Shown here piece after piece: positions 972-37,252 of a stretch of 37,457 nt of DNA. Under the pieces are notes generated by a model. The model did no database searches and was not told where the DNA came from. It saw nothing but the letters and a program-made list of their open reading frames with translations. How positions within the stretch are numbered: the first letter of the stretch is position 1; each line of letters begins with the position of its first letter. This stretch comes from a virus. Position numbers and translations under genes: made by a program. The stretch spans positions 1-37,457 of the IMG/VR virus record IMGVR_UViG_3300017527_000324. One strand, written 5' to 3'.

Positions 972-1229
972 ATGAGTGATGATTTTGATTTTATTCAAGA
1001 AGATGAAAGTGAAGAGGAGACTGCCACCAGTGGCAATCCGAAAGTCAGTGAAGCTGAATTGAGTAATATTGGTGCATTAACACCTGAAATTATCGCAGAA
1101 GCAAGAAAACTTGCTCAAAGTAAAAAAGGCTTAGAAATTGATGCTTTTTTTAAAAAATATTCTCTTGTTAATATGAATCTTGATCGGCTACTTCATGGTA
1201 AACTTAAAGAGGATGGTAGTTTAATATGA
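972..1229 (+). CDS. Small acidic protein of unknown function upstream of portal
   Basis: This is an 85-residue protein with no family I recognise. The first 20 residues are strongly acidic, followed by a helical-looking segment (about 35-80). The start is supported by the ribosome site AAAAGGAGGATAAAA and by the promoter just upstream. Its stop overlaps the portal start by four bases (ATGA), indicating translational coupling. A copy of the 20-bp palindrome lies in frame at residues 17-22 and is read as TATSGN, at the border between the acidic tail and the helical part. The position suggests a head or packaging accessory role, which is inference only. Confidence 0.75.
   Translation: MSDDFDFIQEDESEEETATSGNPKVSEAELSNIGALTPEIIAEARKLAQSKKGLEIDAFFKKYSLVNMNLDRLLHGKLKEDGSLI
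1019..1038. repeat. 20-bp palindrome copy 1 (in frame in the gene at 972)
   Basis: GACTGCCAC-CA-GTGGCAATC. Centre CA on the plus strand. One arm has C at the third position where the other arm would predict T. It is translated as TATSGN in a low-complexity acidic region. Confidence 0.95.
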
Positions 1230-2887
1230 TACAAGAAGATAAAATTAAGTGGCATATTAGACGTGGTAATAAATTAGTACAAGATAGAGCTAATTTTGAT
1301 ACTATGTTTCAAGAAATAGCAGAAAGAACTTATCCTGCACATGCAAATTTTATATACACTCCTTCTGGTGGTGAGAAGAGAATGTCAAAAGTATATGATT
1401 CTACTGCTATTCATGCTAATGAATTATTAGCTTCTGGTCTTTTCTCACTACTCACCAGCACAGCAAGTAAATGGGCTGATATACGTCCAGTTGATTGGCG
1501 TTTATATAAAATTAAAGCTGTTAAAGAGTATCTTGATATTATAACTCGTATTATGTTTCATGAAATAAATAAACCTTCTGCTGGTTTTGCAACAACTATG
1601 CATGAATGTTATTTAGCTTATGGAGCATTTGGAAATCTTGTAACTTTTATTGAAGAAATAGTAGAAAAAGATTCATTACTATTTCAATCTTTACCTTTAT
1701 ATGAATGTTATTTTGTTCAAAATCAATATGGAATTGTAGATACATTATATCGTAAATATGATCGTACAATTGAACAGTTAGTTCGTAAATTTGGTAAAGA
1801 AAAACTATCTAAAAAAACTCAAGATCTTGTAGATGATAATAAGTTAGATAAAAAAATTAATGGTTTTCATATAATCCTTCCAAGAGAAACGGTCAATTTA
1901 TTATCCCCAAAAGCAGTAGATAAACCATTCGCATCATTATATATTGAAGATAAAGAGAAACATTTAATACATGAAGGTGGGTATGATGAATTACCTTTTA
2001 TGGCTGCAAGATTTTATAAAGAGTCATTTGAAACATATGGGCGTGGTCCTGGGGCAACGACACTTCCTGATGTTAAAATGCTAATGCGTGTTGCACAAGT
2101 AACTATTCGTGCTGCACAAAAAGCTACTGATCCTCCTATTATGCTTCCAGATTCCGGTTTTTTAAGACCATTACGTACTACTCCAGGTGGACTTAATTTT
2201 TATCGAAAAGGTCGTATAAGTCTTAAAACTGATATTGATATAATACCTACAGGAAATCCTGGATTGGGTATGGAGTATTCAGCATCATTACATGAGCGTA
2301 TCAGAGAAGCGTTTTTTGTGGATCAACTTCAATTACATGAAGGGCCACAAATGACCGCAACTGAAGTAATGCAACGAACCGAAGAAAAGTTACGATTAAT
2401 GGGGCCATTACTTGGTCGCATTCAAATGGAATTGCTTGGCCCTATGATTGTACGTATTCATGGATTATTAAAACGGGCAGGTAAATTCCCTGAACCACCA
2501 CTTGAATTAGCAGAACAAAATCTTAAAATTGTATATACATCACCTATAGCACGCGCACAAGAACAAGTCGAAGCTAATGGTCTTATGAGAGTTTTTAGTG
2601 TTCTTGAACCTTTAATTAAAATGAATCCTGATATAATGGATTCTTTTGATACTGATGAAATGGCACGTGGAGTATCTGAAATGTTTAGTGTTAATCCTAA
2701 ATTTGTTAGAGATCAAAAACAAATTGATGCAATACGGGAACGAAGAAGGGAAGCAGAAGAAAAGAAGCAACAAGCTGAAAATCTTAGAGCATCAGGACAG
2801 GGAGCAGATGCACTTGCAAGAGCTGCTGCTACTGCATCTGAAGCAGGTATGATGCCTGAAGATATGGATTTTGGAACATTACAATAA
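1226..2887 (+). CDS. Portal / head-to-tail connector protein
   Basis: This 553-residue protein matches the podovirus head-tail connector family (T7 gp8-like; Pfam Head-tail_con as I recall it). The N-terminal stretch with RTYPAHANF, then VYDSTAIHANELLASGL and the tryptophan-containing segment after it, is typical. A dodecamer of this protein would sit at the capsid vertex, bind terminase during packaging and then hold the tail. The C-terminal 60 residues are charged and alanine-rich, as is common in portals. The start overlaps the preceding stop (ATGA). A palindrome copy follows the stop by three bases and supplies the next gene's start codon. Confidence 0.92.
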   Translation: MIQEDKIKWHIRRGNKLVQDRANFDTMFQEIAERTYPAHANFIYTPSGGEKRMSKVYDSTAIHANELLASGLFSLLTSTASKWADIRPVDWRLYKIKAVKEYLDIITRIMFHEINKPSAGFATTMHECYLAYGAFGNLVTFIEEIVEKDSLLFQSLPLYECYFVQNQYGIVDTLYRKYDRTIEQLVRKFGKEKLSKKTQDLVDDNKLDKKINGFHIILPRETVNLLSPKAVDKPFASLYIEDKEKHLIHEGGYDELPFMAARFYKESFETYGRGPGATTLPDVKMLMRVAQVTIRAAQKATDPPIMLPDSGFLRPLRTTPGGLNFYRKGRISLKTDIDIIPTGNPGLGMEYSASLHERIREAFFVDQLQLHEGPQMTATEVMQRTEEKLRLMGPLLGRIQMELLGPMIVRIHGLLKRAGKFPEPPLELAEQNLKIVYTSPIARAQEQVEANGLMRVFSVLEPLIKMNPDIMDSFDTDEMARGVSEMFSVNPKFVRDQKQIDAIRERRREAEEKKQQAENLRASGQGADALARAAATASEAGMMPEDMDFGTLQ

Positions 2888-2890
2888 GGA

Positions 2891-2910
2891 GACTGCCACC
2901 AGTGGCAATC
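2891..2910. repeat. 20-bp palindrome copy 2 (supplies a GTG start codon)
   Basis: GACTGCCAC-CA-GTGGCAATC, centre CA. The GTG at 2902-2904 in the right arm is the best start codon of the next gene, so its first residues MAI are encoded by the repeat. An AAGGAG ribosome site at 2886-2891 lies 10 bases upstream of that GTG. Confidence 0.95.
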
Positions 2911-3171
2911 ACAGATAAACTATTTAAAAAAAGAAAAGAACAAAAAAAGATAGCAATGGCATATAAAATGCTTTTTGATAGTAAAAATCCATATGCAAAA
3001 ATTGTATTAAAAGATATGTGTGAAGCACATGGGGTGTTTGATGGTGGATTTGATCCAGATCCATATATACATGCTTTTAATGGTGGAGAAAAAAATCCAA
3101 TACTACGAATATTAACTATAATTAAACTGCCTTTAGAGGATATTATTGGATTGGCAGAAAGTGAGGAATAA
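2902..3171 (+). CDS. Bbp19-like small structural-region protein
   Basis: This is an 89-residue protein. Its core (YKMLFDSKNPYAKIVLKDM, then CEAHGVF, FDPDPYIHAFNGGEKNPILRI) resembles the Bbp19-like phage family (from BPP-1 and related podoviruses), found between portal and scaffold genes. Its biochemical role is not established. The start is the GTG at 2902 inside the palindrome, with AAGGAG 10 bases upstream. The first in-frame ATG (2957) has no ribosome site and would cut into the conserved core. The N terminus is lysine-rich. Confidence 0.65.
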   Translation: MAITDKLFKKRKEQKKIAMAYKMLFDSKNPYAKIVLKDMCEAHGVFDGGFDPDPYIHAFNGGEKNPILRILTIIKLPLEDIIGLAESEE

Positions 3172-3172
3172 A

Positions 3173-4030: not shown

Positions 4031-4047
4031 TAAAGGAGGTATTAAAA

Positions 4048-4635: not shown

Positions 4636-4640
4636 TATTA

Positions 4641-4660
4641 GATTGCCACCAGTGGCAATC
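4641..4660. repeat. 20-bp palindrome copy 3 (intergenic, before the capsid leader)
   Basis: Perfect GATTGCCAC-CA-GTGGCAATC, centre CA, preceded by TTA. It lies between the minor capsid gene and the hairpin-rich leader of the major capsid gene. Confidence 0.97.
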
Positions 4661-4669
4661 CGCAGATAC

Positions 4670-4743
4670 GGCCCAAAGCCCCTGCAATTTTTATTATTTG
4701 GGCCTCCTTAGTTAAGGAGATACCCCATACTGTAAGTGTATGG
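4670..4743 (+). promoter_or_regulatory. Structured leader of the major capsid gene (three hairpins)
   Basis: Three inverted repeats follow each other: GGCCCAAA/TTTGGGCC (4670-4677 with 4697-4704), CTCCTTA/TAAGGAG (4704-4710 with 4713-4719), and CCATAC/GTATGG (4725-4730 with 4738-4743). None has a clear T-tract. The middle one buries an AAGGAG motif that has no start codon after it. The true ribosome site (AAAGGAGG) lies further on, before 4776. Probable roles are mRNA stabilisation, processing or attenuation ahead of the capsid gene; this is inference. Confidence 0.5.
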
Positions 4744-7023: not shown

Positions 7024-7304
7024 AAACACTTTGGGCGCTTTTTATAGTATTACAAATATTATCTGCTGGACATATAAATTATCAGCAAGAAGCAGGATAT
7101 TATGAAATTAATCCGATATATGGAAAGCATCTGAGCAAAGAAAAAGTATACATTATTAAAGGGTTAGAAACTCTTAGTATATATGGAGCCACAAAAATTT
7201 TTCCTAAATACAAAAAACATATACTTATTAGTGCGTCAAATGTTTGTATTGGTTTTATGGCATATGATAAAACTAAAGGTATATTATTAAAATTTAGATT
7301 TTAG
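7020..7304 (+). CDS. Small membrane protein of unknown function
   Basis: This 94-residue protein has a hydrophobic N terminus (about residues 1-18), a YEINPIYG motif near residue 30, a second hydrophobic or amphipathic helix around 45-60 and a third around 68-85. The NPIYG followed by a helical KAxE-type segment recalls small membrane proteins found in many phages, possibly related to DUF5658-type proteins. I chose the ATG at 7020 because it overlaps the preceding stop as ATGA. The TAG stop shares its G with the first base of palindrome copy 4. A role at the envelope is possible but unproven. Confidence 0.6.
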   Translation: MKTLWALFIVLQILSAGHINYQQEAGYYEINPIYGKHLSKEKVYIIKGLETLSIYGATKIFPKYKKHILISASNVCIGFMAYDKTKGILLKFRF

Positions 7305-7323
7305 ATTGCCACTGGTGGCAATC
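7304..7323. repeat. 20-bp palindrome copy 4 (abuts a TAG stop)
   Basis: Perfect GATTGCCAC-TG-GTGGCAATC, centre TG. Its first G is the last base of the TAG stop of the gene at 7020. The tail nozzle gene begins 15 bases after it. Confidence 0.97.
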
Positions 7324-10435: not shown

Positions 10436-11104
10436 ATGGGAGAAACAGTAGTAGTAGCTCTGGTAGCATCAACAGTTGTAACAGCAGGAACAACATATCT
10501 CGCTGGTAAAGCAGCTTCAAAAGAAGCAAAGGCAGCTTCAAAGGAGCGAAAACAGCAAGCAGAACAAGCAAGACTGCGTGAAGAACGTGAAGAACAGCTT
10601 GCAAAAGAGAAAAAAGATGCTGAAATTAAAATGGCAGGTGAGCGTTTATCTTTTGAAAAGGGAACACGTAAAGAAAAAGCTAAATTTGTAACTTCACAAA
10701 TGGTTAAACGTGATGCAGAAGTTTTTGCTGCTGCTGTAGCTGGTTTTGCTGCTTCTGGAATTGAACTTGGTGAAGATTCAACAACTGCTGTTCTTAATAG
10801 AATATCCAGAGAATCTAAAGTAGAACAAGAGGCAGTTTGGAAAGAGTATTATGATTTTGAAGGTGCAAGAGAACTGGAATACGAACAACTCAAAGAAACT
10901 AAAGAACTTACATACGATTGGTTTACTACTCGATTACATCAAGAAACTGAATGGGAGATTGCTTCAAGATATGCTGAAGCATCAGCACTTAGGACAAAAG
11001 GTAAATATGCTAAGTATGGAGGATATTTAGGCACTGTTGGAAAACTTAGCGGAGGATATGCAAGTGTTTATGGTGCTGGTCGTGAATACAAACTGTGGGG
11101 TTAG
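10436..11104 (+). CDS. Internal virion protein (T7 gp14-like position)
   Basis: This 222-residue protein starts with a hydrophobic helix (residues about 4-24), followed by a long charged alanine-rich coiled coil (about 25-85) and a segment EVFAAAVAGFAASGIELGEDST, a recurring signature of podovirus internal proteins. Such proteins are packed in the head and ejected to extend the tail through the envelope. Gene order (nozzle, GNAT, this gene, then two large proteins) matches the internal-protein block. A GGAG site precedes the ATG. The TAG stop runs directly into palindrome copy 5. Confidence 0.72.
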   Translation: MGETVVVALVASTVVTAGTTYLAGKAASKEAKAASKERKQQAEQARLREEREEQLAKEKKDAEIKMAGERLSFEKGTRKEKAKFVTSQMVKRDAEVFAAAVAGFAASGIELGEDSTTAVLNRISRESKVEQEAVWKEYYDFEGARELEYEQLKETKELTYDWFTTRLHQETEWEIASRYAEASALRTKGKYAKYGGYLGTVGKLSGGYASVYGAGREYKLWG

Positions 11105-11123
11105 ATTGCCACTGGTGGCAATT
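11104..11123. repeat. 20-bp palindrome copy 5 (abuts a TAG stop)
   Basis: GATTGCCAC-TG-GTGGCAATT, centre TG; the last base is T instead of C. Its first G is the last base of the TAG stop of the gene at 10436. Same orientation as copy 4, so the nozzle-GNAT-internal protein block is flanked by direct copies. Confidence 0.95.
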
Positions 11124-11134: not shown

Positions 11135-12970
11135 ATGCCAAAAATAAAAACACAAGATGTTAAAACAGGAATACCTTCAATATCTACGCCAGGAGTAACA
11201 CCACACAGTATTGCTTCTATAACTGTACCAAAAGCAAGACCTCAAACTATTTTTAAAGGTTCAGGGGGCCAACATTTAGTTGCAGGTGCAGCATCTTTGC
11301 AACATGGGTTAGAAAGAATATTTTTTATACACGCAAAAAAAGAAGAAGAATTAAGAGCTGCAAACTCTCGTCTTATAGCAGAAGATATTGATGCTCATTT
11401 TTTAGATCGTCTTGATACTATGAAAAATAGAACAGGTGAAAATGCTTATGGTCTTCTCAACGAATTAAAAGAAGATTATGGAGAGTTAAAAGAAAGTTCA
11501 ATTCCTGAAGATACAGACGCTAAAACAAGAAGTGAATTGAATTTAGCATTTGAAAAAGCATATAATAGACACGTTAGAGAAGTTATTGGTTGGCAAGTAA
11601 GTCAAGCTAAAGTAGCAAATAACACTGTAAGAAAACGTAATATGAATAACTCTCATAAACGTATTAATTTATTACCTGTTGGTGATCTTGATAGTGTTAA
11701 AAAATATGCTGAAGATAGTTCTAAAATTGAAATAGCTCTTAATCCAAATTATAATAAAAAACAACGGGCAGATGTTAGTACTACATATCAAGAAGATTAT
11801 ATTGTTCACGCTTATACTAAATGGTTTACTGATAATCCAACTCTTGCAAAACAGTCTTGGGAAGATAATCAAAAAATACTTAAAGATGCACTTCCTATGA
11901 AATACTCTATATTAGCGAATAAGTATGAACAGGCAAAAGAAGATTCTAAATATGATGTACTGATGGGAAATATGTATATTAAACATACTAATAATTATAT
12001 AGCTATGATAGATGATCTTGAAAAGAATCAAGAAAAATATATAAAAGATGGAGTACATGCTGAAAATATATTAAAATTAATTTCTACTTTTCAAACACGG
12101 CATAATTTTGAAGTATCTGAAAACAAACGTATTAAACAAGAAAATGAAGATGTATTTTTTAATCGTATTAGACAAAAGTATTATGATAAAAATACTGGAG
12201 TTTTTAACAATTTTGGATATATTCAGGATTTAGAAGTTGCGTATCGCCAAGGAGTAATAAGCAAATCATCATTTGATACTGCAAGACATGCTGCGTTAAC
12301 TGGAGAGTTTAGTATAGCACAGTATCATGAATTAATGGATGAAATAACTGATGGGTTGATTATTACCAAAGGTCAAATTAATAATAGAATATATGGTACA
12401 GGTGCTAAACCTGAACCGTTTTACAGAGAGTTAGAAAAAAGAAAAAAAGCAGTAAATGAAGGTAGAAAAATTAATTATATTAAACAAGCGGGATTAAAAT
12501 ATGATAGAGAATCAACAAAAAAACGAACTGAATTGGATGTTAAAGAAAAAGTGCTTTTACTTGACCCTTCACAAAGACCTGATTTTATTCGTGCTCTTGT
12601 TGATCGCACAAACAAACTTGGTTATGATCCATTTGATGCACGAGTTTTAGATGAAGCAAATAAAATGCTGCAAAGTGGTTGGTATAATTACGGTAAACCT
12701 GAATTTCATCCAGGAGAAGCACCTTGGTATGTTACAGGTGAAAAATACACCAGGAAATGGGAATACGATGCAACTCTTGAACAATTAAAAAAAGAAGGTG
12801 AAATTGAATATATACCTGGTGAGATTGCCACCAGTGGCAATCAAGAAGATAAAGATATTCGTGCATTTATAAAAGCAAATGAGAAAGATTTTGTTGGAGT
12901 AGATTTTGATAACCCTGAAACTGCAAAAAAATTAAGAGAATGGTGGAAGAAACGAAATGCCACTAAGTGA
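11135..12970 (+). CDS. Large internal virion / ejection protein (gp15-like position)
   Basis: This is a 611-residue, mostly helical, highly charged protein. The N terminus is proline-rich (about 1-45), followed by helical segments including a region with SLQHGLERIFF and many Lys/Glu-rich stretches. No enzyme motif is visible. Position and size match the middle internal protein of podoviruses (T7 gp15 role: part of the DNA-ejection conduit). Palindrome copy 6 is in frame near the C terminus (about residue 564), read as IATSGN, between two charged segments. The C terminus overlaps the next gene by 14 bases. The assignment rests on order and composition. Confidence 0.65.
   Translation: MPKIKTQDVKTGIPSISTPGVTPHSIASITVPKARPQTIFKGSGGQHLVAGAASLQHGLERIFFIHAKKEEELRAANSRLIAEDIDAHFLDRLDTMKNRTGENAYGLLNELKEDYGELKESSIPEDTDAKTRSELNLAFEKAYNRHVREVIGWQVSQAKVANNTVRKRNMNNSHKRINLLPVGDLDSVKKYAEDSSKIEIALNPNYNKKQRADVSTTYQEDYIVHAYTKWFTDNPTLAKQSWEDNQKILKDALPMKYSILANKYEQAKEDSKYDVLMGNMYIKHTNNYIAMIDDLEKNQEKYIKDGVHAENILKLISTFQTRHNFEVSENKRIKQENEDVFFNRIRQKYYDKNTGVFNNFGYIQDLEVAYRQGVISKSSFDTARHAALTGEFSIAQYHELMDEITDGLIITKGQINNRIYGTGAKPEPFYRELEKRKKAVNEGRKINYIKQAGLKYDRESTKKRTELDVKEKVLLLDPSQRPDFIRALVDRTNKLGYDPFDARVLDEANKMLQSGWYNYGKPEFHPGEAPWYVTGEKYTRKWEYDATLEQLKKEGEIEYIPGEIATSGNQEDKDIRAFIKANEKDFVGVDFDNPETAKKLREWWKKRNATK
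12823..12842. repeat. 20-bp palindrome copy 6 (in frame in the gene at 11135)
   Basis: Perfect GATTGCCAC-CA-GTGGCAATC, centre CA, read as IATSGN near residue 564 of 611. Confidence 0.97.
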
Positions 12971-15900
12971 AGAAGATAAAAAATTTATAAGTACACTTCC
13001 AACTACAGAAGAAGCGGATAAAACTTTTATAGCCAGTCTTCCACAAGTAGACGATATTCCTGAAGAATGGCGTAACAGGGTTTTAATGAGTAGAATAACT
13101 CATCCTCTTCCTACTAAAGAACAAGAAGCATTACAAGAGGATTATGTACCTCTTATGATTCCTGGTATTGGTGTTGGTATTGGTATGCAAACAGTTGCCA
13201 GAGGTGGATCAATAGCGCTTGGAGCAGCAAGGGGAACAATAGCATCTGGATTAGCAACAGGAGCAGAAGCGTACATTAGACCATTAGAAGAATACGCAGG
13301 AGAAATTCATCCTTGGTTAAAACCGATTGTAGGGTTAACAGCAGGTATAGGATCAGCTATAACTATTGAGGCATTAGGTACTGAATTGCTCGCTAAGGCT
13401 CTTACTAAATCTGCACCTAAATTTTGGACAAAACAACTTACTACTATGGAACGCCAAGGTATAATTGATAAAGAATTTATTGAAGATATTAAACATATAG
13501 CATCTCGTATGGATGAAGGAGATACTGAAGCAATACAAATAGTATTAAATAAGTTAAAGGCTCATACACATGATGAAGTATTATCTAAAGCAAGTAAAAA
13601 ATTAGCAAAGATGCGAGAAGTTAAAACTCCTATTATACCATCTACGAATAAAGTAATAAAACAACTAAGTAGAAAAAATGTATTGGATGATTGGGACTAC
13701 CAACGATTAGCTAAAATAGCTGAACGTGATGCTATTCATGAATATCAATCTGAGTTTGCAAAGTTAAAAACTAAAATTATTGATGAAGAATGGAAAGTAG
13801 CTAAACAATTTGAAAATCCTAAAATAAAAAGATCATCAATTGAATATATGTACCGTGAAGAATTTGATCGTATATATCGTGATGAAATACTTTTAAGAAC
13901 TCAAGAAAAAGAATCTAAATATTTGGCTAAAATATTAGGAGTTGAGGGAAAAATTACTAAAAAAAATGCTGTCAAAATTGCTATGGAAGGATATTCTTCT
14001 ATGAAGTCTGTAGAAGATGTTATCAAAGAAGTTACAACATTACGTAAAGTTACTCAACGTCTTGGTAATATTATAAGACGCCAGACTACTAAAGAAATGA
14101 CAGTAACTAACAAGGCTAAAATTCAAAGATTACAAAATGCTTATAACAGTAGAATGATAAATTATCGAGCAGCACTTAAAATTAAAAATGATGTTGGACT
14201 TATAAAAAAACGATTAAGCAGGTATTTAACTAAAGGTAAAGAAATGCCTGCTGAATATCGAGAACAAATACGTAATTTTTTATCTCCCATGTTTGATAAA
14301 CCATTTGTAAGATTAGATGAAAGTATGTGGAACTTTCTTAGTAGAAAATATAATGATGAATTTTCTATAGGTGCAAATATACTACTTAAAAAATATGATG
14401 ATATGCTTAAAAGTTTACCATCACGTACTCATAATTTTAATGGACTTACACATGCACAAACAAAAGATTTAGATGATTTTGTTAAAGCATTTCAGTTTGT
14501 AGGTAAGAACGAAAAGGTTATCAATTACAAAACTGAAAAGATGTTATTAGAATCTATTGCAAAAGAAATATATACATCAGCATTAAAAGGTAAACCTAAA
14601 TTACAGATACTACATCCACGTGTTGTTGGAACTCAATTAGAAGAATTAGCTAAACCAACAAAAGGTGTTACTGGACAAGTATTAGAATCTTCTGCGGATC
14701 TTGGAAGTGGATTTCTTGCTGTATTAAAACGTATGGAGCCTATCTGTAGACAACTTGATGGTTTTCAAGAATTTGGTACAGCTTGGAAACAGATATTTAA
14801 TAAAACAATAATTGCTGAAGTTGCTAAAGAACAGCTTGGTCAAAAAGTATTTAAAAAATATGGTGAAATATTTCAAGCACATCGTATTGCTACAAAAATG
14901 GGAAAACGTCCTACTAAATATTGGACTGCCACCAGTGGCAATCTGGCGGGGTATAGCGTTGATAAAGAAACTGCTATAGCTATGGCCTTGAATAGTGGTA
15001 ATAAAGGTAACATGGCAGCCATGCTTCGAGGTCTTCAAGTTAATGAAGATGAGTTAATGGATTTTTTAAAGACCGCACTCAATGAAGCTGATTGGAAATT
15101 AGTAAATAATATTTGGAATACACTTGACAGTTTATTTCCAATCATGTCGAAAGTATATAAAGAAATGACTGGAACAACTCTTCAAAAATTGAAAGGTGGA
15201 AGGTATTATCCAATTGTTGCAGATAAAAAATATATGGATTTTAGAGAAGGATTTGAAGATTTATTTCTTGAAGCTAATATGGGAAAATTTTTAGCTGCTG
15301 TTGAAAAAGGATTTACTAAAACTCGTGTTGGTGGAGTTAAAGCAGTTAAATTAAGTCTAAGACCTTTAACACAACATCTTGAAGATGTTGTTCATATGGC
15401 AACACATTGGAAACCAATTAATGAAATACAGCGGTTAGTAAAACATGATTTATTTGAAAAAGCAGTAAAAGAAACAATGGGTGAACGTATATACGCGCAA
15501 TTTGATCCTTGGTTAAAAAATCTTGCAAGACCTAAAATGACTGCTTATCCTGATGTTCTTGTTGAAAAAACTCTTGGTAAAGCAAGACATAATGTAACTA
15601 CAGTTGCACTTGGGCTTGTACCAAAAGTTGGTGTTAAACAGACATTATCATTAATTACAGCAATACCTGAAGTTGGGGCCAAAAATACTATGGCAAGTTA
15701 TGCAAAATTTATGGTAAACCCAAGACGTTTTATTCGTTCAGTAAGTGAAGCATCACCTGAAATGATGTTTAGACAAAAAACTTGGCAACGTGAACTATCT
15801 GAAATGGCAGCTAAATATAATCATAAAGGAAATTTAAAAGGTGGTACAGCTAATTGGTATTTTAAATTTATTCATTTGTTTGATCGTATAACTTCTTCTG

Positions 15901-20699: not shown

Positions 20700-21500
20700 A
20701 TGAAACACTTAAAACACATATTAATAAGTCTATTTTTATTGGGATTGCCACTGGTGGCAATCTTAGATGCACGACCTCCCGTTGCACCACAACCACTTAC
20801 TACATTAGGAATGGGTGATGTTGAAACTCTTGGCGCTGGTTGGAATGGTGATTCATATGCTTCTGCAAAAGACGATATACACGACTATATCTATGACCAA
20901 CTTGGCGATACGGGATATGATGGGTTGGATAATGATACTGTTACACCTACAAGGATACGGTTAAAACTCGATAAGCTGACCGCCGAGCCAGGTAGTCTAA
21001 CGGCAGGAGATGTCTATTATGCTGATGAGGCAAATTGGGACCCTGCGGGAATAGGAATTGGTATAGCTTATTATGTCCTTTATGATGGGGCTAATTGGAT
21101 ACCTTTATGGAATGAAGATGGAGATTTCTACGTTAATAAATCCCAAGCGGCTGTGAATGTAATTCCAGACGCAGATGGAATAGTTCTTACTGCTGCTCAG
21201 ATGAATTCTGTTATCGTAATGACAGGAGCAGGGGATGTAGATATTCCTGAGAATATGTGTGATTCAGCGACAGGGAAGTGGCTTATAGTAAAAAGTACAG
21301 CAGCACATCTCAATTCCATAACATCAAACGATGCTACAGATGCCTTTGTGCTTTCAGATGGAACAGACTGTGGTAATGCTGATGAGCTTGACCTTGGGGG
21401 AGCAGCAGGAAATCAGGCAACTATAGTATGTATACAGACGAACAAGTGGTGGGTAGTTGGAGAGATTGGAACTTGTGTCGATGGAGGAGGAGCAGATTAA
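20700..21500 (+). CDS. Exported putative appendage protein (palindrome in signal peptide)
   Basis: This is a 266-residue protein. The N terminus MKHLKHILISLFLLGLPLVA is a Sec-type signal sequence whose GLPLVAI is encoded by palindrome copy 9. The mature protein begins with a short proline-rich stretch and MGDVETLGAGWNGDSYASA. It continues as a beta-rich region (YYVLYDGANWIPLWNEDGDF; PDADGIVLTAAQMNSVIVMTG) of phage-fibre style and ends CVDGGGAD. The first 180 bases are AT-rich like the core genome, while the rest is richer in GC, suggesting a conserved head joined to an exchanged tail. The ATG lies just past the previous stop. Confidence 0.6.
   Translation: MKHLKHILISLFLLGLPLVAILDARPPVAPQPLTTLGMGDVETLGAGWNGDSYASAKDDIHDYIYDQLGDTGYDGLDNDTVTPTRIRLKLDKLTAEPGSLTAGDVYYADEANWDPAGIGIGIAYYVLYDGANWIPLWNEDGDFYVNKSQAAVNVIPDADGIVLTAAQMNSVIVMTGAGDVDIPENMCDSATGKWLIVKSTAAHLNSITSNDATDAFVLSDGTDCGNADELDLGGAAGNQATIVCIQTNKWWVVGEIGTCVDGGGAD
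20743..20762. repeat. 20-bp palindrome copy 9 (in a signal peptide)
   Basis: Perfect GATTGCCAC-TG-GTGGCAATC, centre TG, read as LPLVAI in the hydrophobic core of the signal peptide. It is only 524 bases from copy 8, the closest pair in the window. Confidence 0.97.
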
Positions 21501-24999: not shown

Positions 25000-25390
25000 C
25001 CCTATAACAGCAGTACTCGGACTTGTTAATAAAGGTCTTGATAAGTTCGTAATGGACAAAGGTGCAAAGGCAAAGTTGGCATCTGAGATGCAAGTTTTTG
25101 TCATGCAAGAGGCTACTAAGCAAGGCAGTGTTTTTCGAGATTTCATTGTAAAGTATGAAGGGGCTGCTAAGGATGTACCAAAGGCTATAGTTTACTTGAG
25201 ATCACTTATTAGACCAGCGTTTACAATTCTAATTGGATATGTGGATGCTATATACTTTACAACAACTGTAACATGGTCTCCAGAAAAAATTGGTCTTCTT
25301 AAGGCAGTCAATGTCATAATTTTGATGTTCTGGTTTGGTGAGCGTGCGATAGTTAATTCTGGTATCATAGATAAACTTATTAAAAAGTAG
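24989..25390 (+). CDS. Holin, GTA-type three-TM family
   Basis: This is a 133-residue protein. An amphipathic N-terminal third precedes FRDFIVKYEGAAKDVPKAI and YLRSLIRPAFTILIGYVDAIYF, then a second hydrophobic stretch (AVNVIILMFWFGERAI). The KYEGxA...LRSxIRP pattern is the signature I associate with the holin family of gene transfer agents and many phages. It would form membrane lesions that release the endolysin. The GAGGAGG site lies inside the endolysin end. The stop TAG (25388-25390) is the first part of the convergent hairpin. Confidence 0.78.
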   Translation: MAFDPITAVLGLVNKGLDKFVMDKGAKAKLASEMQVFVMQEATKQGSVFRDFIVKYEGAAKDVPKAIVYLRSLIRPAFTILIGYVDAIYFTTTVTWSPEKIGLLKAVNVIILMFWFGERAIVNSGIIDKLIKK

Positions 25391-25411
25391 ATTGCCACTG
25401 GTGGCAGTCTA
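25388..25411. terminator. Putative bidirectional terminator built on a palindrome copy
   Basis: The hairpin TAGATTGCCAC / GTGGCAGTCTA begins and ends with the TAG stops of the two convergent genes. On the plus strand it is followed by TTTATGTTTT; on the minus strand it is followed by CTTTTTAATA. Both strands thus have a stem plus a T-rich run, the format of intrinsic terminators. One position in the stem is a T-G pair on the plus strand. Confidence 0.6.
25390..25409. repeat. 20-bp palindrome copy 10 (between convergent stops)
   Basis: GATTGCCAC-TG-GTGGCAGTC, centre TG. It fills the space between the two operons exactly, sharing a base with a TAG stop on each strand. Confidence 0.97.
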
Positions 25412-25704: not shown

Positions 25705-28461
25705 TTACCTCCCATCTTCCATTAATAATTCATTAACTTCTTCCATAAATTCTAATTCTAATCCTGGAGCAGCTATTAATCCATATATTGTATATTGTTG
25801 TTTTTTTTCTCGCATTGACCTTATAATTTTTAATTTTGGATATAAAGAACTAATTCTTCGTTTAGATGCTCGTTTTTGTACTACATGTTTATCTGAAGGT
25901 TGACTTAACCTTTTACAATATGCCCTAAAAAAATGTGTAAAATCTTTTTGTAATATAAATAAATCTCTTTCTGCGTCAACATCAATTGTAAAATATTTGT
26001 CTATAAAAGTTTTTAATGGATCAATTTGAGCTTCTAATGTGCGTTTAGCTGCTAATCCTGATTTAGGTTCTATAAATATTGCTCTTTTACTTAATCTTTC
26101 TAACCCTTTAAAATGCCAATTTAGTATGCTGGCTAAACCATCTTTTAAAATATGTTGATCTAAACCAAGAATTTCTTCTGAAGTTCCTCTAAACATTTTA
26201 TTAAATCGTATAATTATTAGCCGTTGAGTTAATGCTCCAGTATCATCTGGTAATACTGGAGTAAGATTTGTCATCATTACTAATTTACACCCAAGCAATT
26301 CAGTCATTATATCTTTACGTTTAGCTTCAGTATCTACATGATCTTGACCTATTATTTTAAGTAATGTAGGAATTACTGACTTAAGAGTTTTAAAATCTAT
26401 TCCTCTTGCTTCAGACATTACTGCTAATTTTTTTCCAGGTAAATTACTTAACCCAAATTGACCTGATATTTTATTAAGAGATATTGCTGAATAGTATTCA
26501 GAACCAACACATGCTTGGAATATTTTAGCTAAAATACTTTTACCACTTCCAGGAACCCCTTCTACTATTAACATTTTATGAATATAATATGAATCTGCTA
26601 AAATATATCCACCGTATTCCCGTATTAATTCTACTGTTTCTAAATCTTCTTCACATGTACTTTCTAAAAAATCAATATATTTATCAGGCGTTTTATCTTT
26701 ATCTCGCTGCCATTGTTTATAAGTTACTGGTAACTCTTTATATATATTATCTGTTTTCTTTAAAGTTTTTATAGCTTTATTAGATTGCCACTGGTGGCTA
26801 TCTGAAAATAAATCATTCATTAATATTCCATATCTTCCACCTTTAAAAGCCCAACCATTTCCTTTAATAAATTCATCTATATTTAAACATGAGTCTCTAA
26901 TTATTACACGTGTTAGTTGTTCCGCTTTGTAGTAATCTATTTCCAATTTTATAGGTATAGTTGTATGGATATGATTATACACAAATGCTCTTGTTTGAGA
27001 TACATTACATCTTTTCCAAATTCGTTTAGTGCTAAAGTAACACCAAAAGTCTCCTGTCTCTATTTTATGATGTGAATAAAGAATTTTTTGACGTTTAAAG
27101 ATGCTTGCCATATGTCTAATATTTGCTTCTGGATCAAATTCATCGTATTGGGTAGCTTTATCTCGTCTAATACTTTTGAACATACCTTTTAATACTGCTT
27201 TAGTGATATTTTTTTTTGTTTTAATTGTTATCAAATTAAAAATATGTTCTCTTGATAATTCTGTTAAATACATTTCATGTAAATCTCTAAGTAATCCATC
27301 AATTATTTTTCTATTAACCCCTTCATACCCTGATTCAATAATCCACTCTGTTCTATATATTAATTCTTGTAAAATTTCATCTTGATAATTTGCGTCATTT
27401 AACATTGCTTGATTTAATGTAAAATCAAATTCTTTCAATAGTAATGGATCAGTTTTTTTATGTAAGATTGCCCAACCGTACATTATATCATACGCATTAA
27501 GGCTTTTTCTTTTAAAATTATGTATTTTTTCAACAATAATATTTAATGGATCACCGTCATGATGGGAATATACATAACCATTTTCAAATAATATTGTACC
27601 AGCAATACCTGTATTAGATGAAGGTGCTAAGAATCTATTTTCACCTTCATCAGAATACCCTAAAGATAATAATGCTTTCTTTGGATGAATCATTCTACAG
27701 AAAGAACCTACTTTTCCAAGTAAATGTGAAGCAGCAGGAAGATTAGCAACCTCAAGAGGATCTTTATGTTTTAAGACAACATAAGGTTGCCAACCAGGAA
27801 GAACATGAGAATAATCTTTTTTAATTAAAGACAATCTTGGAAAAGTAGATTCTTGTATGGTTAAAGGATCTATTAAATCTTGCCATATAGAAAAAGCTGT
27901 AAAAATAGGTTGAGTTAAATTAAAATAAAATGTAGCATCAACAGGTATTTTATCTTGTTTAATCCACATACCTATTTCTCTTGGATATTGTGGCTCTTTT
28001 AAAAGAAAGATAATATGACATCTTAAATAAGGTTTATTACCTATTAAAAATGAAGAACTAAAACGAAGTATATATGATACATTATGAAATTCAGGAGGTA
28101 AATATTGCTGTATAAATTTATCTGATTCTTTTATTGCAGAAGTATATGTAAGATTTTTTGTTGAATACTCATACTTATCTAAGTCTAAAACAATGTATTT
28201 AATTAATTTCTCTTCAAAATTTTTAAGTGTTCTATCTGTATCTATTATTTCAGGTCTTATAGAAGTGCCTGTAACCATACAAGTATCAGGTTTAGTAGAT
28301 AATATTTGGCATATATGAAATAATCCTTCAGGGGTATCTTCTACTGACTGAAGACCAATATTATTATTCCATGTTGGCCCTAAATATTTACAATCTGTTT
28401 TTGTATATGGCCTGGATTTTATTCTACTACGTACAAGAGTGATTGTAAATTTACTGGTCAT
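25705..28461 (-). CDS. Primase-helicase (PrimPol-like N terminus, SF3-type helicase C terminus)
   Basis: This is a 918-residue protein. Near residue 90, YIVLDLDKYEY gives a DxD pair, and near 145-160 LRCHIIFLL gives a histidine motif, both as in archaeo-eukaryotic primase (PrimPol) domains. Near 635, VEGVPGSGKS is a Walker A; KKLAVMSEA a Walker B-like strand; MMTNLTPVLPDDTGALTQRL (about 727-747) an SF3-type sensor motif. It would prime and unwind the phage DNA. I chose the ATG at 28461, which overlaps the previous stop (ATGA) and follows AAAGGA; an ATG at 28488 is less likely. Palindrome copy 11 falls near residue 555, between the two domains. Confidence 0.82.
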   Translation of the reverse strand: MTSKFTITLVRSRIKSRPYTKTDCKYLGPTWNNNIGLQSVEDTPEGLFHICQILSTKPDTCMVTGTSIRPEIIDTDRTLKNFEEKLIKYIVLDLDKYEYSTKNLTYTSAIKESDKFIQQYLPPEFHNVSYILRFSSSFLIGNKPYLRCHIIFLLKEPQYPREIGMWIKQDKIPVDATFYFNLTQPIFTAFSIWQDLIDPLTIQESTFPRLSLIKKDYSHVLPGWQPYVVLKHKDPLEVANLPAASHLLGKVGSFCRMIHPKKALLSLGYSDEGENRFLAPSSNTGIAGTILFENGYVYSHHDGDPLNIIVEKIHNFKRKSLNAYDIMYGWAILHKKTDPLLLKEFDFTLNQAMLNDANYQDEILQELIYRTEWIIESGYEGVNRKIIDGLLRDLHEMYLTELSREHIFNLITIKTKKNITKAVLKGMFKSIRRDKATQYDEFDPEANIRHMASIFKRQKILYSHHKIETGDFWCYFSTKRIWKRCNVSQTRAFVYNHIHTTIPIKLEIDYYKAEQLTRVIIRDSCLNIDEFIKGNGWAFKGGRYGILMNDLFSDSHQWQSNKAIKTLKKTDNIYKELPVTYKQWQRDKDKTPDKYIDFLESTCEEDLETVELIREYGGYILADSYYIHKMLIVEGVPGSGKSILAKIFQACVGSEYYSAISLNKISGQFGLSNLPGKKLAVMSEARGIDFKTLKSVIPTLLKIIGQDHVDTEAKRKDIMTELLGCKLVMMTNLTPVLPDDTGALTQRLIIIRFNKMFRGTSEEILGLDQHILKDGLASILNWHFKGLERLSKRAIFIEPKSGLAAKRTLEAQIDPLKTFIDKYFTIDVDAERDLFILQKDFTHFFRAYCKRLSQPSDKHVVQKRASKRRISSLYPKLKIIRSMREKKQQYTIYGLIAAPGLELEFMEEVNELLMEDGR
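26783..26802. repeat. 20-bp palindrome copy 11 (in frame in primase-helicase linker)
   Basis: GATTGCCAC-TG-GTGGCTATC on the plus strand, centre TG, with one A-to-T change. On the coding (minus) strand it is read in the third frame as SHQWQS, unlike the other coding copies. Confidence 0.92.
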
Positions 28462-28965: not shown

Positions 28966-29111
28966 TTTTTGCTCTCCTTCTTCTGATTGCCACTGGTGGC
29001 AGTCTTCTTATACATAGTTCTAACTGTACCACATTTATTACATTGATACGTAGTTTTACTATCATTCCGTTCTATTTTCACAAATCTTCCACCACATTTT
29101 TTGTGCTTCAT
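28962..29111 (-). CDS. Small zinc-ribbon-like protein, 49 residues
   Basis: ATG at 29111-29109 to TGA at 28964-28962. It begins MKHKKCGGRFVKIE and has YQCNKCGTV in the middle. H3, C6, C24 and C27 could form one zinc site (H-x2-C ... C-x2-C). It is preceded by a near-perfect AAAAGGAGGT site; its start overlaps the helicase stop (ATGA) and its stop overlaps the next start (ATGA), strong evidence that it is real despite its length. Palindrome copy 12 is in frame near the C terminus, read as TATSGN, just after the zinc module. It may bind DNA, RNA or polymerase; this is inference. Confidence 0.78.
   Translation of the reverse strand: MKHKKCGGRFVKIERNDSKTTYQCNKCGTVRTMYKKTATSGNQKKESKK
28985..29004. 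repeat. 20-bp palindrome copy 12 (in frame in zinc-ribbon gene)
   Basis: GATTGCCAC-TG-GTGGCAGTC on the plus strand, centre TG. On the coding minus strand it reads TATSGN. Confidence 0.97.
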
Positions 29112-31066: not shown

Positions 31067-31332
31067 CTTAAATCCACCTCCTTTAAAGCATTAAGCCGAT
31101 TAAATCGGCTTATTGCTCTCTTTAGTAATAGTTTACCTGATCGTCTTTGAGTTATCAGGTACTTAATCATTTTCATTATTGTAAATTTCTCATAAGATTG
31201 AAGTGTTCTACAATATCTTTCCCAATCAGAACAGTCAAGAATAAACCTATCTATATCTGTATCAGTTAATTCTATAGATAGTATCAATCGCTTTATATTA
31301 GTGATATTAATCACCTCCTTTCTGATTGCCAC
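31063..31332 (-). CDS. Hypothetical replication-operon protein with an uncertain start
   Basis: Up to 89 residues. The core WERYCRTLQSYEKFTIMKMIKY, then RSGKLLLKRAISRFNRL, is basic and helical. The only near canonical start is the GTG at 31332, inside palindrome copy 13 (encoding MAI), but no good ribosome site lies upstream of it. A perfect AAAGGAGGTGAT sits inside the frame (31321-31310), ideally placed for a non-standard start at ATC 31305 (or ATT 31311). The true N terminus may therefore be 7-9 residues shorter. A TTG further in (near residue 16) is another option. Confidence 0.6.
   Translation of the reverse strand: MAIRKEVINITNIKRLILSIELTDTDIDRFILDCSDWERYCRTLQSYEKFTIMKMIKYLITQRRSGKLLLKRAISRFNRLNALKEVDLR
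31092..31112. repeat. Near-perfect 21-base inverted repeat inside a coding region
   Basis: TAAGCCGATT-A-AATCGGCTTA, 10-base arms around one base. It lies in the C-terminal codons of the gene at 31063 (minus), 26 bases before the VRR-NUC start. It may be an mRNA hairpin that tunes translation of the nuclease gene, or a protein-binding site. It is unrelated in sequence to the 20-bp palindrome. Confidence 0.7.
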
Positions 31333-31343
31333 CAGTGGCAGTC
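31324..31343. repeat. 20-bp palindrome copy 13 (joins a TAG stop to a possible GTG start)
   Basis: GATTGCCAC-CA-GTGGCAGTC, centre CA on the plus strand. On the minus strand its first base is the G of the TAG stop of the upstream gene, and it contains the GTG that may start the next gene. Confidence 0.97.
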
Positions 31344-33613: not shown

Positions 33614-33721
33614 TTATATCCTTTTTAGTAAGTTTATGCAGACTGCCACTGGTGGCAGTCTGCATTTTGTTAAGGCTACACCACCAAGGCCGTTAAGCCA
33701 CCTACCACCACCATAAATCAT
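33614..33721 (-). CDS. Possible 35-residue gene between SSB and DNA polymerase
   Basis: ATG at 33721-33719 to TAA at 33616-33614. The protein starts MIYGGGRWLNGLGGVALTKC and continues with RLPPVAVCINLLKRI. It sits between the SSB stop and the polymerase start (21 and 3 bases of spacing), with GGTGAGGGG upstream of the ATG. The 30-base hairpin of palindrome copy 14 lies within it, read in frame as LPPVA. The glycine-rich composition is unusual, so it may instead be untranslated spacer holding the hairpin. Confidence 0.38.
   Translation of the reverse strand: MIYGGGRWLNGLGGVALTKCRLPPVAVCINLLKRI
33641..33660. repeat. 20-bp palindrome copy 14 (extended to 14-base arms)
   Basis: GACTGCCAC-TG-GTGGCAGTC, centre TG; both arms carry the C/G variant. 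Flanking ATGCA (33636-33640) and TGCAT (33661-33665) extend the inverted repeat to 14-base arms. Confidence 0.97.
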
Positions 33722-34459: not shown

Positions 34460-36061
34460 TTAACTAATTACCTTAAATTCACCAGTGTCATATACAATAT
34501 ACCCATAACCATTTCGCTCGTTTAAGTATCTTAATTGCATTTTAATCATATTTTCACTGGTATCGAGAGCCTTTGCCGCATCACTAATAGTTACACCTCC
34601 TTTCCCAAAATTAAGTACTTCTAATCGCTGTGTTCCAGCTTTTGGAGTATTTTGAATTTCCTTCGGTTGGGCATTGATGATTACATTGCCACCAGTGGCA
34701 ATCTCTTTAACTACCACTTTAGAATTTTCACTAATAAATATGTCATTGAAATCATCATCATTAGTTTTAACAGGAATGTCCACATCTTCATCTCCTTCAT
34801 CTTCCAGTACTGCAAGACGCATACGATCAAGAGCACTCATGTGTTTTACTTCTTCGTGATCGTCTACAGAATCAACAAGTATAGGTGAATCTGGCACAAA
34901 TTCTTGAAATTCTTGTTCAACAGTGTCTTCAATTTCTGGACGTTTATCAGAATCAGGTACAAGAGTAGGTGAACCAGGTGGTTTGGTAATATACTTTTCA
35001 AGGCCTAACTGTTCAGCATTTTTCTTACCGATAGCTTTTTCTGCTACAGTAGGACTGATGAGAATTTCTTCATATGCTTTAATCTTACAAGATACTTCAA
35101 GAAATGCAGCTACTTCTTTTTCATCAGCACCCCATTTGCGATTAGATCGACCACGCACAACTTTATAACCTGGAATTTTATTACCAGCTAATGCTTGATC
35201 TAAAGCATATGTTTGAACAGTTTTTATCCAATTTTGTATCTGTTTGAATTTAGGCAGGAGCAAAGCTATTTCCTTGATAGGGTATATTGTAGCCATATCT
35301 TCTTTACTAAATTGTTCAAAGGCCGCCTCTGCTTCAGTCATCATAAAATTTCTTTGAGCTTCACAAATTGCAGAAGCAGGACACCATCTGCATTGTTCAA
35401 CACCTGGATTACACTCAGCATCACCGTTTTTAGCTTCACTCATAGCTTTTTGAACATTTGTTTGAAACCACACAATAAGTTCTTTACGATCTATTTCCCA
35501 AATTCGTATTGGGTTAACGGTTCTTGGCTGAACTATTACCAATCTAACTTTTGAAGGGGATAAATTATATTCTTTCTGTAGATATTTTAAACCACCAACT
35601 CCATACAACATTAATTGTGGATTTTCTACAGCTTCAACAATAACCCCTTTACCCATTTTTAGATCCATAATAACTGCTATTTCAGGACTCCACAAAAGAG
35701 CGTCTAATGTTCCCCAACATTCTTCAGTTATGCTAATTTCATGCTCAATTTTTCCACCTTTAGCACCAATTTCTTTAGCCATACCTTTTACTTCATCTAT
35801 ATATACTTGTATGCCATCAACAAGCTCTTGTGTTATTGTAACATCTTCAACAACTGTTCCAAGATACGTATTAACATCTATACTATCTTTAAGACAAGTT
35901 GCTGCAATATCATGGCAAACAATTCCTTCATGTGCATATACAGATGGTAGTCCTTCAGGGATATTTTTAGAAAGGTTTAGAGAAGTAGGACAAGCTATCC
36001 AACGGTGCGAAGCTGATGGAGCAAAAAAAGCATGTTTAGCTTTTTCAATTTTTTTTGTCAT
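34460..36061 (-). CDS. DUF2800 Cas4/RecB-like nuclease with C-terminal HTH
   Basis: This is a 533-residue protein. N-terminal APSASHRWIACPTS gives one Cys (C24). GTLDALLWSPE and then VIMDLKMGKG give the PD-(D/E)xK nuclease core. CNPGVEQCRWCPASAIC supplies three more cysteines, the arrangement that holds an Fe-S cluster in Cas4/AddB-type exonucleases. Residues about 480-533 (ISDAAKALDTSENMIKMQLRYL) form a winged-helix-like module not seen in short DUF2800 proteins. Palindrome copy 15 is in frame near residue 453 (IATGGN) just before this module. A recombination or end-processing role is likely. An AAAGGAGG site is upstream. Confidence 0.8.
   Translation of the reverse strand: MTKKIEKAKHAFFAPSASHRWIACPTSLNLSKNIPEGLPSVYAHEGIVCHDIAATCLKDSIDVNTYLGTVVEDVTITQELVDGIQVYIDEVKGMAKEIGAKGGKIEHEISITEECWGTLDALLWSPEIAVIMDLKMGKGVIVEAVENPQLMLYGVGGLKYLQKEYNLSPSKVRLVIVQPRTVNPIRIWEIDRKELIVWFQTNVQKAMSEAKNGDAECNPGVEQCRWCPASAICEAQRNFMMTEAEAAFEQFSKEDMATIYPIKEIALLLPKFKQIQNWIKTVQTYALDQALAGNKIPGYKVVRGRSNRKWGADEKEVAAFLEVSCKIKAYEEILISPTVAEKAIGKKNAEQLGLEKYITKPPGSPTLVPDSDKRPEIEDTVEQEFQEFVPDSPILVDSVDDHEEVKHMSALDRMRLAVLEDEGDEDVDIPVKTNDDDFNDIFISENSKVVVKEIATGGNVIINAQPKEIQNTPKAGTQRLEVLNFGKGGVTISDAAKALDTSENMIKMQLRYLNERNGYGYIVYDTGEFKVIS
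34684..34703. repeat. 20-bp palindrome copy 15 (in frame in DUF2800 gene linker)
   Basis: CATTGCCAC-CA-GTGGCAATC on the plus strand, centre CA; the first base differs from consensus. On the coding strand it reads IATGGN between the nuclease and helix-turn-helix parts. Confidence 0.95.
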
Positions 36062-36093
36062 ATTTGTACCTCCTTTTTACGTAGGAATACCGT

Positions 36094-36113
36094 GATTGCC
36101 ACTGGTGGCAATC
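36094..36113. repeat. 20-bp palindrome copy 16 (extended to 17-base arms)
   Basis: Perfect GATTGCCAC-TG-GTGGCAATC, centre TG. Flanks AATACCGT (36086-36093) and ACGGTATT (36114-36121) extend the symmetry to 17-base arms. It lies between the ParB-like and DUF2800 genes. No T-tract follows on either strand. Confidence 0.97.
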
Positions 36114-36137
36114 ACGGTATTAAGTGATATGTAACAA

Positions 36138-37211
36138 TTAGTCAGTTTCTTCAACTACAGGATCAGCAATTTCTGGAGGTTCCGTATCGAGTACTTCAAC
36201 AATGAGAGATATTCCTTCTTTAATATGACCAATATCTTCATCTTTAAGATTAACTCTCTCTTTACGGGTTACGTCAAGAACTCGCTCAAGAGCAACCAGT
36301 ACTTTTTCTACTGGCTCTTTTGGGGCAGGACGATCTTTGGCAGCCGCTTCTTTGACTGCTTTGATCTTGGCCTTTTTCTTTTCAAGCACTTCATCAATGG
36401 CCTTCACTGGATCACTTTCATCCTGTGTTTTGTTAATTTTGATAGCATCTTCAACTTCTGCCCTTGTAAGACTCCCTTTGATGATTTTATCTGCAACTTT
36501 GCGCTGTGTTGCTTCATCAAACATTTCAATAACTCGTTTTTCACCCTTCCCTTTATCTGATTTGGTGACGAGTTTTTGAAATCTGTTTGCAAGTGTTACG
36601 TTGGGAAGATTTTGGGCCAGTTTGAAGGTTGCTTCATCTTTTTCAATAACCTGGAGAGCATCATGGATAGTTTGACGACTCCATGTATCCCCAAGAAATT
36701 GAGCAATAACACTGGCTCCTACTCCATGATTCTTCATTCGAGTGAATGACCGATCATCAACCCGTAATGCTCCCTGTGCGCCAACTTTTTTCATAAAAGC
36801 ATCTTTATCAGCAGAAGCCATCAGTAGGGTTGTAAGATGTGCCTGAAGTTGAAGTACACTCATACACAAGTTTTGAGGGTCTTCACCCCAGGTGTCTTTG
36901 TTTTCTTGAACAAAGATTTTAAGCATTATTTCATCTGTTAACTGAGTTTCAGGTCGAACATTTACTTTAATGTTCTCATATTCAGTTAACCCTTCTGCCA
37001 CAAGTCTCCTAAGAGCCTCAATTCGATGATGGCCATATACGATTTGCAGTCGGCCATCTTTAGTTTTTCGTATTAGAATATTTTCCCAATACGATAGATC
37101 TCCAATACTCTCCATTAATGAAGTGATCGCATTTTCCTTCCATACGTAGGCATTTGGATCACGATATGGATTGTTTTCAAGATTTTTTAATGCTACTGTT
37201 ACAAAAGCCAT
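36138..37211 (-). CDS. ParB/Srx-domain protein (ParB-like)
   Basis: This is a 357-residue protein. The N-terminal domain has the ParB box: NNPYRDPNAY (box I region, residues 13-22) and YGHHRIEALRRL (59-70), where the GxxR loop binds nucleotide (CTP in known ParB proteins). Residues about 170-205 (GVGASVIAQFLGDTWSRQTI) look like a helix-turn-helix, and a charged coiled region follows (about 265-300). I chose the ATG at 37211, with AAAAGGAG 8 bases upstream, over a TTG at 37250 inside the palindrome. Phage ParB-like proteins act as nucleases, methylation partners or DNA-binding regulators; which applies here is open. Confidence 0.75.
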   Translation of the reverse strand: MAFVTVALKNLENNPYRDPNAYVWKENAITSLMESIGDLSYWENILIRKTKDGRLQIVYGHHRIEALRRLVAEGLTEYENIKVNVRPETQLTDEIMLKIFVQENKDTWGEDPQNLCMSVLQLQAHLTTLLMASADKDAFMKKVGAQGALRVDDRSFTRMKNHGVGASVIAQFLGDTWSRQTIHDALQVIEKDEATFKLAQNLPNVTLANRFQKLVTKSDKGKGEKRVIEMFDEATQRKVADKIIKGSLTRAEVEDAIKINKTQDESDPVKAIDEVLEKKKAKIKAVKEAAAKDRPAPKEPVEKVLVALERVLDVTRKERVNLKDEDIGHIKEGISLIVEVLDTEPPEIADPVVEETD

Positions 37212-37232
37212 AATTAATTCTCCTTTTGTTGT

Positions 37233-37252
37233 GATTGCCACCAGTGGCAATC
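37233..37252. repeat. 20-bp palindrome copy 17 (upstream of ParB-like gene)
   Basis: Perfect GATTGCCAC-CA-GTGGCAATC on the plus strand, centre CA. It lies in the leader of the ParB-like gene, about 22 bases before its start codon and just before its ribosome site. Confidence 0.97.

Follow-up and report, generated by a model that had tools for sequence, protein, structure and literature searches.

The window analysed here, a 37.5-kb podovirus contig (37,457 nucleotides), carries 17 copies of the 20-bp palindrome GAYTGCCAC-(CA/TG)-GTGGCARTC, which are probably loading sites for a ParB-family dimer encoded by the phage itself (Table 1). Our results are best explained if these are dispersed, parS/OB-like sites at which an orphan ParB-family clamp of the phage would load, coating the genome and so organising its DNA, controlling its transcription, or both.

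Sequence and spacing of the palindromic sites

All 17 coordinates listed in an earlier note on this DNA were correct, as was its division of the central dinucleotides into eight CA and nine TG. At up to two mismatches, TGCCACNNGTGGCA matched the contig 18 times; dinucleotide-preserving shuffles gave an expectation of 0.60 ± 0.77, and no shuffle produced as many as 18. Fifteen of the 17 copies, not 16 as the note had it, have an intact 14-base core, because the last core base of copy 11 (26783) is also altered (A-to-T), in addition to the C-to-T of copy 8. Nor is variation outside the core confined to transitions or to arm position 3: copy 15 (34684) has a 5′ C and copy 5 (11104) a 3′ T.

Across 124 non-redundant sites, the symmetric half-site was RGAYTGCCAC around a YR centre, and orientation bias was absent. 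GAYTGCCAC half-sites numbered 16 on one strand and 15 on the other and were essentially confined to the palindromes, with isolated half-sites essentially absent in motif-bearing phages. Sites were spaced more evenly than by chance, at about one per 1.5–2 kb (~2,000 letters).

That these are recombination or inversion sites, or remnants of a tiny mobile element, is barely credible. The 2-bp non-palindromic centre is like that of serine invertase crossovers, and CA or TG orients each copy with both orientations used equally, but the centres across sites (TG 57, CA 56, CG 8) were YR rather than one fixed pair, gene order between sites was conserved, and neither a serine recombinase (PF00239) nor a tyrosine integrase was found in the seven records searched.

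Left and right arms varied independently, which bears on a possible RNA-level role as hairpin terminators, processing sites or antitermination signals in long phage transcripts. At two sites (25390 and 33641) an extended stem does run into a T-rich tail, and the first of these lies precisely where the operons converge; dual use is possible at these two. Arm covariation is nevertheless lacking (C/A mismatch at arm position 3 in 20 of 119 sites, odds ratio 2.0, p = 0.10), flank complementarity was at chance, the loop has two bases, Rfam gave no match and most sites have no T tract. Because the arms do not covary, we reject an RNA hairpin or terminator for most sites and regard an RNA-level element as highly unlikely. 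Intragenic sites used all three reading frames; taken with the arms without RNA-type covariation, this shows that selection acts on the DNA, presumably as the target of a dimer.

Table 1 Palindromic sites and the ParB-like gene of the contig
Feature	Position	Centre or strand	Context	Remarks
Site 1	1019..1038	CA	Within 85-aa ORF preceding portal gene	Same place in relatives
Site 2	2891..2910	CA	Portal/g89 junction	Occupied in nearly all relatives spanning the junction
Site 3	4641..4660	CA	Intergenic, upstream of major capsid gene	Relatives use alternative junctions
Site 4	7304..7323	TG	Upstream of tail tubular protein B	
Site 5	11104..11123	TG	g222/g611 junction	
Site 6	12823..12842	CA	Within g611	Frame encodes IATSGN
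Site 7	14924..14943	CA	Within gene of 1215-aa virion protein	
Site 8	20219..20238	TG	Within signal-peptide-like start of g173	Core C-to-T
Site 9	20743..20762	TG	Within signal-peptide-like start of g266	
Site 10	25390..25409	TG	Convergence of late (+) and early (-) operons	Also terminator-like
Site 11	26783..26802	TG	Within primase/helicase gene	Core A-to-T
Site 12	28985..29004	TG	Intergenic, 20 bp upstream of 104-aa ORF	
Site 13	31324..31343	CA	Junction between two small early ORFs	
Site 14	33641..33660	TG	polA/SSB junction	Also terminator-like
Site 15	34684..34703	CA	Within DUF2800 exonuclease gene	
Site 16	36094..36113	TG	25 bp from stop codon of ParB-like gene; upstream of exonuclease gene	
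Site 17	37233..37252	CA	22 bp upstream of start codon of ParB-like gene	
ParB/Noc/KorB-fold protein, orphan, 357 aa	36138..37211	minus	Proposed site binder	PHROG, Pfam, Foldseek/VIA, motif co-occurrence

The sites mark one clade of phages

Besides this contig, over 30 viral contigs carry the same sites with different flanks, as does one contig in a Thorarchaeota bin; the motif is therefore not an assembly artefact of a single contig, a possibility that the note had allowed for. Motif-bearing phages (all uncultured) formed one monophyletic clade in a portal tree, with portal identity as low as 45–57% within it. Site junctions were conserved over more than 30 contigs, as was gene order between sites, and the site was unchanged at conserved junctions between phages with portals 57–81% identical, which strongly supports the selection suggested in the note. 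Its alternative of recent spread found no support: the motif belongs to a single, old clade whose members share site positions, and recent mobile spread is rejected on the shared junctions together with the portal tree. Decayed sites were few in most genomes of the clade, and gene conversion is a possible maintenance mechanism.

Ten contigs with the standard gene set span both the portal/g89 and the TTA/TTB sites; all ten have exactly one more site in this interval, at one of three alternative junctions. One site per interval at shifting junctions looks like a density requirement, not single-gene control.

Within 257 Gb of GTDB genomes, the 20-bp pattern occurred in 13 stretches only, one being a phage fragment from the motif clade, and this rarity in cellular genomes rules out a host-encoded repeat. 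It is also very improbable that the phage exploits a host factor (a host ParB, a nucleoid protein or a LexA-like regulator) as the site binder: three of the 13 matches came from Desulfobacteraceae bins, which hold one or two sites apiece, but the eight cellular genomes checked (2.5–7.6 Mb) had one to three cores each, and the motif tracks a phage gene and is absent from the sister phages G036 and G037. The Desulfobacteraceae bins were rejected as a host lead, the matches lying in ordinary chromosomal DNA without phage genes and without the ParB-like gene. A search for an alternative palindrome in G036 and G037 turned up only a local ACCAC-N3-GTGGT cluster and none spread over the genome.

A ParB-like gene accompanies the sites

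The ParB-like gene was present in all six motif-bearing records covering its locus (proteins 57–68% identical) and absent from both sister records, of which G037 spans the locus and likewise lacks the small ORFs g89b and g89c. Wherever a record allows a judgement, gene and motif either occur together or are both missing; these records are one clade and one sister lineage and effectively one evolutionary contrast. In four of five phages, the gene has one site within 0–28 bp of its stop codon and another 22–110 bp upstream of its start; the exception, G021, has no site close to it. The earlier note drew no link between the sites and this gene in the same window.

A search with the single protein returned nothing, its word patterns not being conserved, and an alignment-based search succeeded; at the sensitivity used, no further homologues were found in IMG/VR, GTDB or INPHARED. 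A general rule that a phage ParB-like gene implies dispersed palindromes was rejected, as none were found in Adler (49.7 kb of the genome), Kiko, Dmitri or Sazerac; phage 7-7-1, in the same test, had a weak palindrome family of four.

The protein comprises a ParB/Srx N-domain with GHHR and EN motifs, an HTH domain (residues ~109–217) and a helical C-terminus. It matched PHROG ParB (E 1.7e-6), while matches to Pfam PF02195 (ParB_N; 18.8–20.6 bits in the two best members) and HTH_ParB (weak, in four of five members) were below the curated cut-offs, and a profile search of PDB sequences gave no match. Its predicted structure, a model of moderate confidence (pLDDT 69, pTM 0.47), matched Noc (7nfu, E 7.5e-6), ParB (6t1f, 2.2e-5) and KorB (8qa9, 7.5e-5) in Foldseek, each with probability 1.0, and VIA gave Z of 10.6–11.1 over residues 1–265 against these three, the alignment spanning the N-domain and the DNA-binding domain. 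Invariant residues made up 75% of positions 150–217, compared with 38% of the N-domain and 21% of the C-terminus. Y-G-H-H-R and E-N were invariant in all five members; GHHR differs from the GxRR of CTP-binding ParB, and is as close to Srx/SerK-type ATP proteins as to that motif. With its ParB/Srx-type N-domain and central HTH, the modelled protein appears to belong to the ParB/Noc/KorB-fold family.

A ParA-type ATPase (PF13614) was detected in none of the seven records, which are incomplete, compared with 14 of 14 controls; ParA was not found and the system is therefore not an ordinary partition system. In a search for a phage-type RNA polymerase, no control gave a match.

Proposed mode of action

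We propose that the dimer would grip each 9–10-bp half-site through its HTH domain and that, on nucleotide binding by the N-domain, it would close as a clamp and slide away from the site. With one site per 1.5–2 kb, most of the phage genome could be covered by the protein. Such a coat may organise or condense replicating phage DNA and/or dampen or time transcription, that of the ParB-like gene included.

Many phages have annotated ParB-like genes without ParA. In the present case the likely targets are visible in the DNA itself, a divergent clade has kept both the number and the spacing of the sites, and a sister lineage is without both gene and sites, so that a vague annotation becomes a testable protein–site pair.

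Comparison with known systems

Noc of Bacillus has many palindromic sites dispersed over the genome and no ParA partner. It is also the best structural match (7nfu) to the phage protein, but it is chromosomal, acts in membrane-tethered division control and has another site sequence. Plasmid RK2 offers a parallel in KorB-OB: KorB has the ParB fold, its palindromic operators are scattered over a mobile element, and the clamp can act at distances of up to 1.5 kb from a site, which is near the site spacing in the phage. KorB differs in acting together with KorA at plasmid promoters, and the ParA homologue IncC is present in RK2 (PMC11790492). Dispersed sites bound by ParB also occur in the phage-plasmid N15 (sop, dispersed centromeres) and in plasmid pMF1 (PMC3235114), but there they come with ParA, serve segregation and number a handful rather than 17.

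Cluster A mycobacteriophage (L5) stoperators are likewise 20–30 binding sites through a phage genome (PMC6550527), and a stoperator or operator network, although rather unlikely, deserves weighing: a repressor encoded by the phage, whether the ParB-like protein in a local role or some other small HTH protein, would occupy the sites, block elongation or initiation and keep prophage or early/late genes silent in the manner of L5 Rep. Sites do occur in both operons, many of them 11–35 bp upstream of start codons, the site adjoining the ParB-like gene suggests autoregulation, and the fold relative KorB is a long-range silencer (PMC11790492). Stoperators, however, are 13–14 bp, lack dyad symmetry, are transcription-oriented and are bound by an immunity repressor (PMC6550527), whereas the sites here are symmetric and unoriented, with CA and TG about equal on both operons. 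Most of them lie within operons and not at promoters, promoter-like matches are at chance level, no integrase was found in the seven records, and site number is kept while position moves between junctions.

The reading that we prefer, loading sites for a ParB-family clamp, has its closest precedent in the Cluster O mycobacteriophages (Corndog, JangDynasty), which have more than 30 17-bp palindromes TGTTCGG-N3-CCGAACA and the ParB-like gp90 (PMC4351075); our recount gave 30 copies in 40.8 kb of JangDynasty. The earlier note knew of no described phage system with this sequence, which holds for the sequence but not for the kind of system (PMC4351075). Both have near-invariant dyad sites genome-wide, intergenic and intragenic, at positions mostly shared among relatives and with no orientation rule, and in both a ParB-like gene is present and neither an integrase nor a parAB system is found. 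Cluster O differs in its sequence, its 3-bp centre, its unrelated phage type (a siphovirus with a prolate head) and its sites, which are denser towards one end; profile comparison detected no relation between the JangDynasty ParB-like protein and ours. Our phage thus combines tens of dyad sites genome-wide with a phage ParB-like gene, as Cluster O does, with sites and proteins that were non-homologous in the tests run, and the protein–site pairing offers an explanation for the decade-old Cluster O repeat puzzle. More tentatively, a ParA-less phage-encoded clamp with about 20 even sites and whole-genome coating might be a phage chromosome organiser that compacts the viral genome, handles sister genomes, hands the DNA over for packaging or shields it from host proteins, and Cluster O might have arrived at the same solution independently.

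Results

Sites and their placement

All 17 copies of the palindrome proposed in the earlier note are present in the window at the positions given there, against 0.6 expected by chance at up to 2 mismatches. The claim of a conserved core largely held, with 15 of the 17 copies exact, but copies 8 and 11 each carry one change. Among 124 non-redundant sites (a collection that required the central core, making core invariance there a matter of construction; the core was not required in the window), the half-sites have the consensus RGAYTGCCAC and flank a central pyrimidine-purine step (TG 57, CA 56, CG 8). Left and right sides vary independently at arm position 3 (odds ratio 2.0, p = 0.10) and the flanks, when tested, were complementary only at chance level; the unit is thus a DNA dimer site and not an RNA stem. 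Lone GAYTGCCAC half-sites are almost absent, and in most genomes the distribution of position-weight scores is bimodal, with some cores in the related records G001 and G034 differing by one or two changes.

Features of the window, a podovirus-like contig of 37,457 bases (IMG/VR virus record), and of related contigs
Feature	Position	Strand	Remark
Terminase	left end of window	+	gene cut there
Portal, capsid, tail, virion genes	up to ~25.4 kb	+	
Primase/helicase, SNF2-type helicase, VRR nuclease, family A DNA polymerase, Gp2.5-like SSB, DUF2800 exonuclease, ParB-like gene	beyond ~25.4 kb	-	
ParB-like protein, 357 aa	36138-37211	-	PHROG match, E 1.7e-6
Tail tubular protein B (TTB) homologue	7339-9981		inserted repeat units (W..SPDGITWT..), missing from several relatives
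Partial ParB-like duplicate	G001 20443-20700 (L117:443-700)	+	TIHDALQAIENDEATFKLA
Zinc-ribbon ORF, 70 aa	G004 (L129:10230-10442)		weak match to ParB-like N-domain profile
G021 contig end	L121:1-1560		low-complexity DN and DEL repeats; Q-S repeat protein
ACCAC-N3-GTGGT palindrome cluster	L125:8303-8663, L127:14330-14690		sister phages without the motif; local, upstream of terminase gene
Thorarchaeota-binned contig L160 (JABCTV010000177.1)	1-5889		terminase-to-capsid genes, 3 sites

Ten of the 17 window sites lie wholly or partly outside the chosen ORFs, in about 3% of the sequence (P ~1e-7, allowing a generous 8%). The seven intragenic sites are spread over all three reading frames, and their translations are unrelated peptides (ATSGN, LVAI, HQWQS), which places the constraint on DNA. 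Site-bearing junctions common to the clade include portal|g89, TTA|TTB (tail tubular proteins A and B), g222|g611 and exonuclease|ParB-like. Between portal|g89 and TTA|TTB, one and only one extra site occurs in contigs with the standard gene set, at any one of three alternative junctions, and the relatives L016 and L137, with additional DNA before TTA, have an additional site there. This constant number at shifting junctions looks like selection for density.

Median spacing is 0.9–2.0 kb. Variation among gaps (CV) was below random in the window (0.58, p = 0.01), G001 (0.59, p = 0.007), G021 (0.51, p = 0.002), L139 (0.27, p = 0.001) and L007 (0.15, p = 0.0001), and not significantly so in G004 and G034; six records pooled, which are related to one another, gave p ~2e-6.

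Distribution and the ParB-like protein

In IMG/VR, exact scans turned up many contigs with the motif. It is dense in portal relatives down to 61% identity, and also in G004 and L019 (portals 57% and about 45% identical, respectively); it is missing from the sister phages G036 and G037 (57%) and from the remoter portal relatives checked. In a portal tree the carriers form one clade adjoining G036/G037, with basal placement of L019 weakly supported. A single relaxed match in contig L058 is probably chance. L160 is clearly a piece of a phage from this clade, and its archaeal bin reflects either a misbinned virus or a hint of the host.

The ParB-like gene occurs in every motif-bearing record spanning the locus (the window, G001, G005, G021, G034 and G004). 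It was absent from the sister phages, profile search included, and was not found beyond the clade in database searches at the sensitivity used. A site flanks it on both sides in four of five distinct phages. Pfam ParB_N and HTH_ParB matches were weak and below cut-off; an AlphaFold2 model built from five sequences, of moderate confidence (pLDDT 69), had Noc, ParB and KorB as its top PDB structural matches. Conservation peaks at residues 150–217, where 75% of positions are invariant. The protein is the likely binder of the sites. Searches of seven records for ParA, tyrosine integrase and serine recombinase found none. The partial duplicate in G001, of the DNA-binding region, lies on the opposite strand and adjoins a site.

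Discussion

Beyond the site architecture, conservation, spacing, co-occurrence and fold similarity that we observe, we propose that the ParB-like protein would bind the sites and form a clamp, which may slide along DNA so that such clamps coat the phage genome. KorB works over distances of up to 1.5 kb from its own sites (PMC11790492), a reach similar to the site spacing here, which suggests that sites may be spaced so that a clamp can cover the genome. Since the sites show this density pattern and no association with promoters, we lean towards DNA organisation rather than transcription control as the outcome.

Other phages with ParB-like genes, among those tested, are without such palindrome arrays. 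Agrobacterium phage 7-7-1 (L177) carries TACAAATNATTTGTA four times in 50 kb and also an orphan ParB-like gene. Dispersed palindromes with a ParB-like gene were described, without explanation, in Cluster O mycobacteriophages, whose authors put forward three candidate DNA-binding proteins, gp90 among them, and were doubtful of a role in genome stability (PMC4351075); our recount confirmed 30 copies in 40.8 kb of JangDynasty. A dispersed DNA site network is thus a type already known; what is new is its presence in an unrelated phage group, where the evidence on which protein reads the sites is better than for Cluster O.
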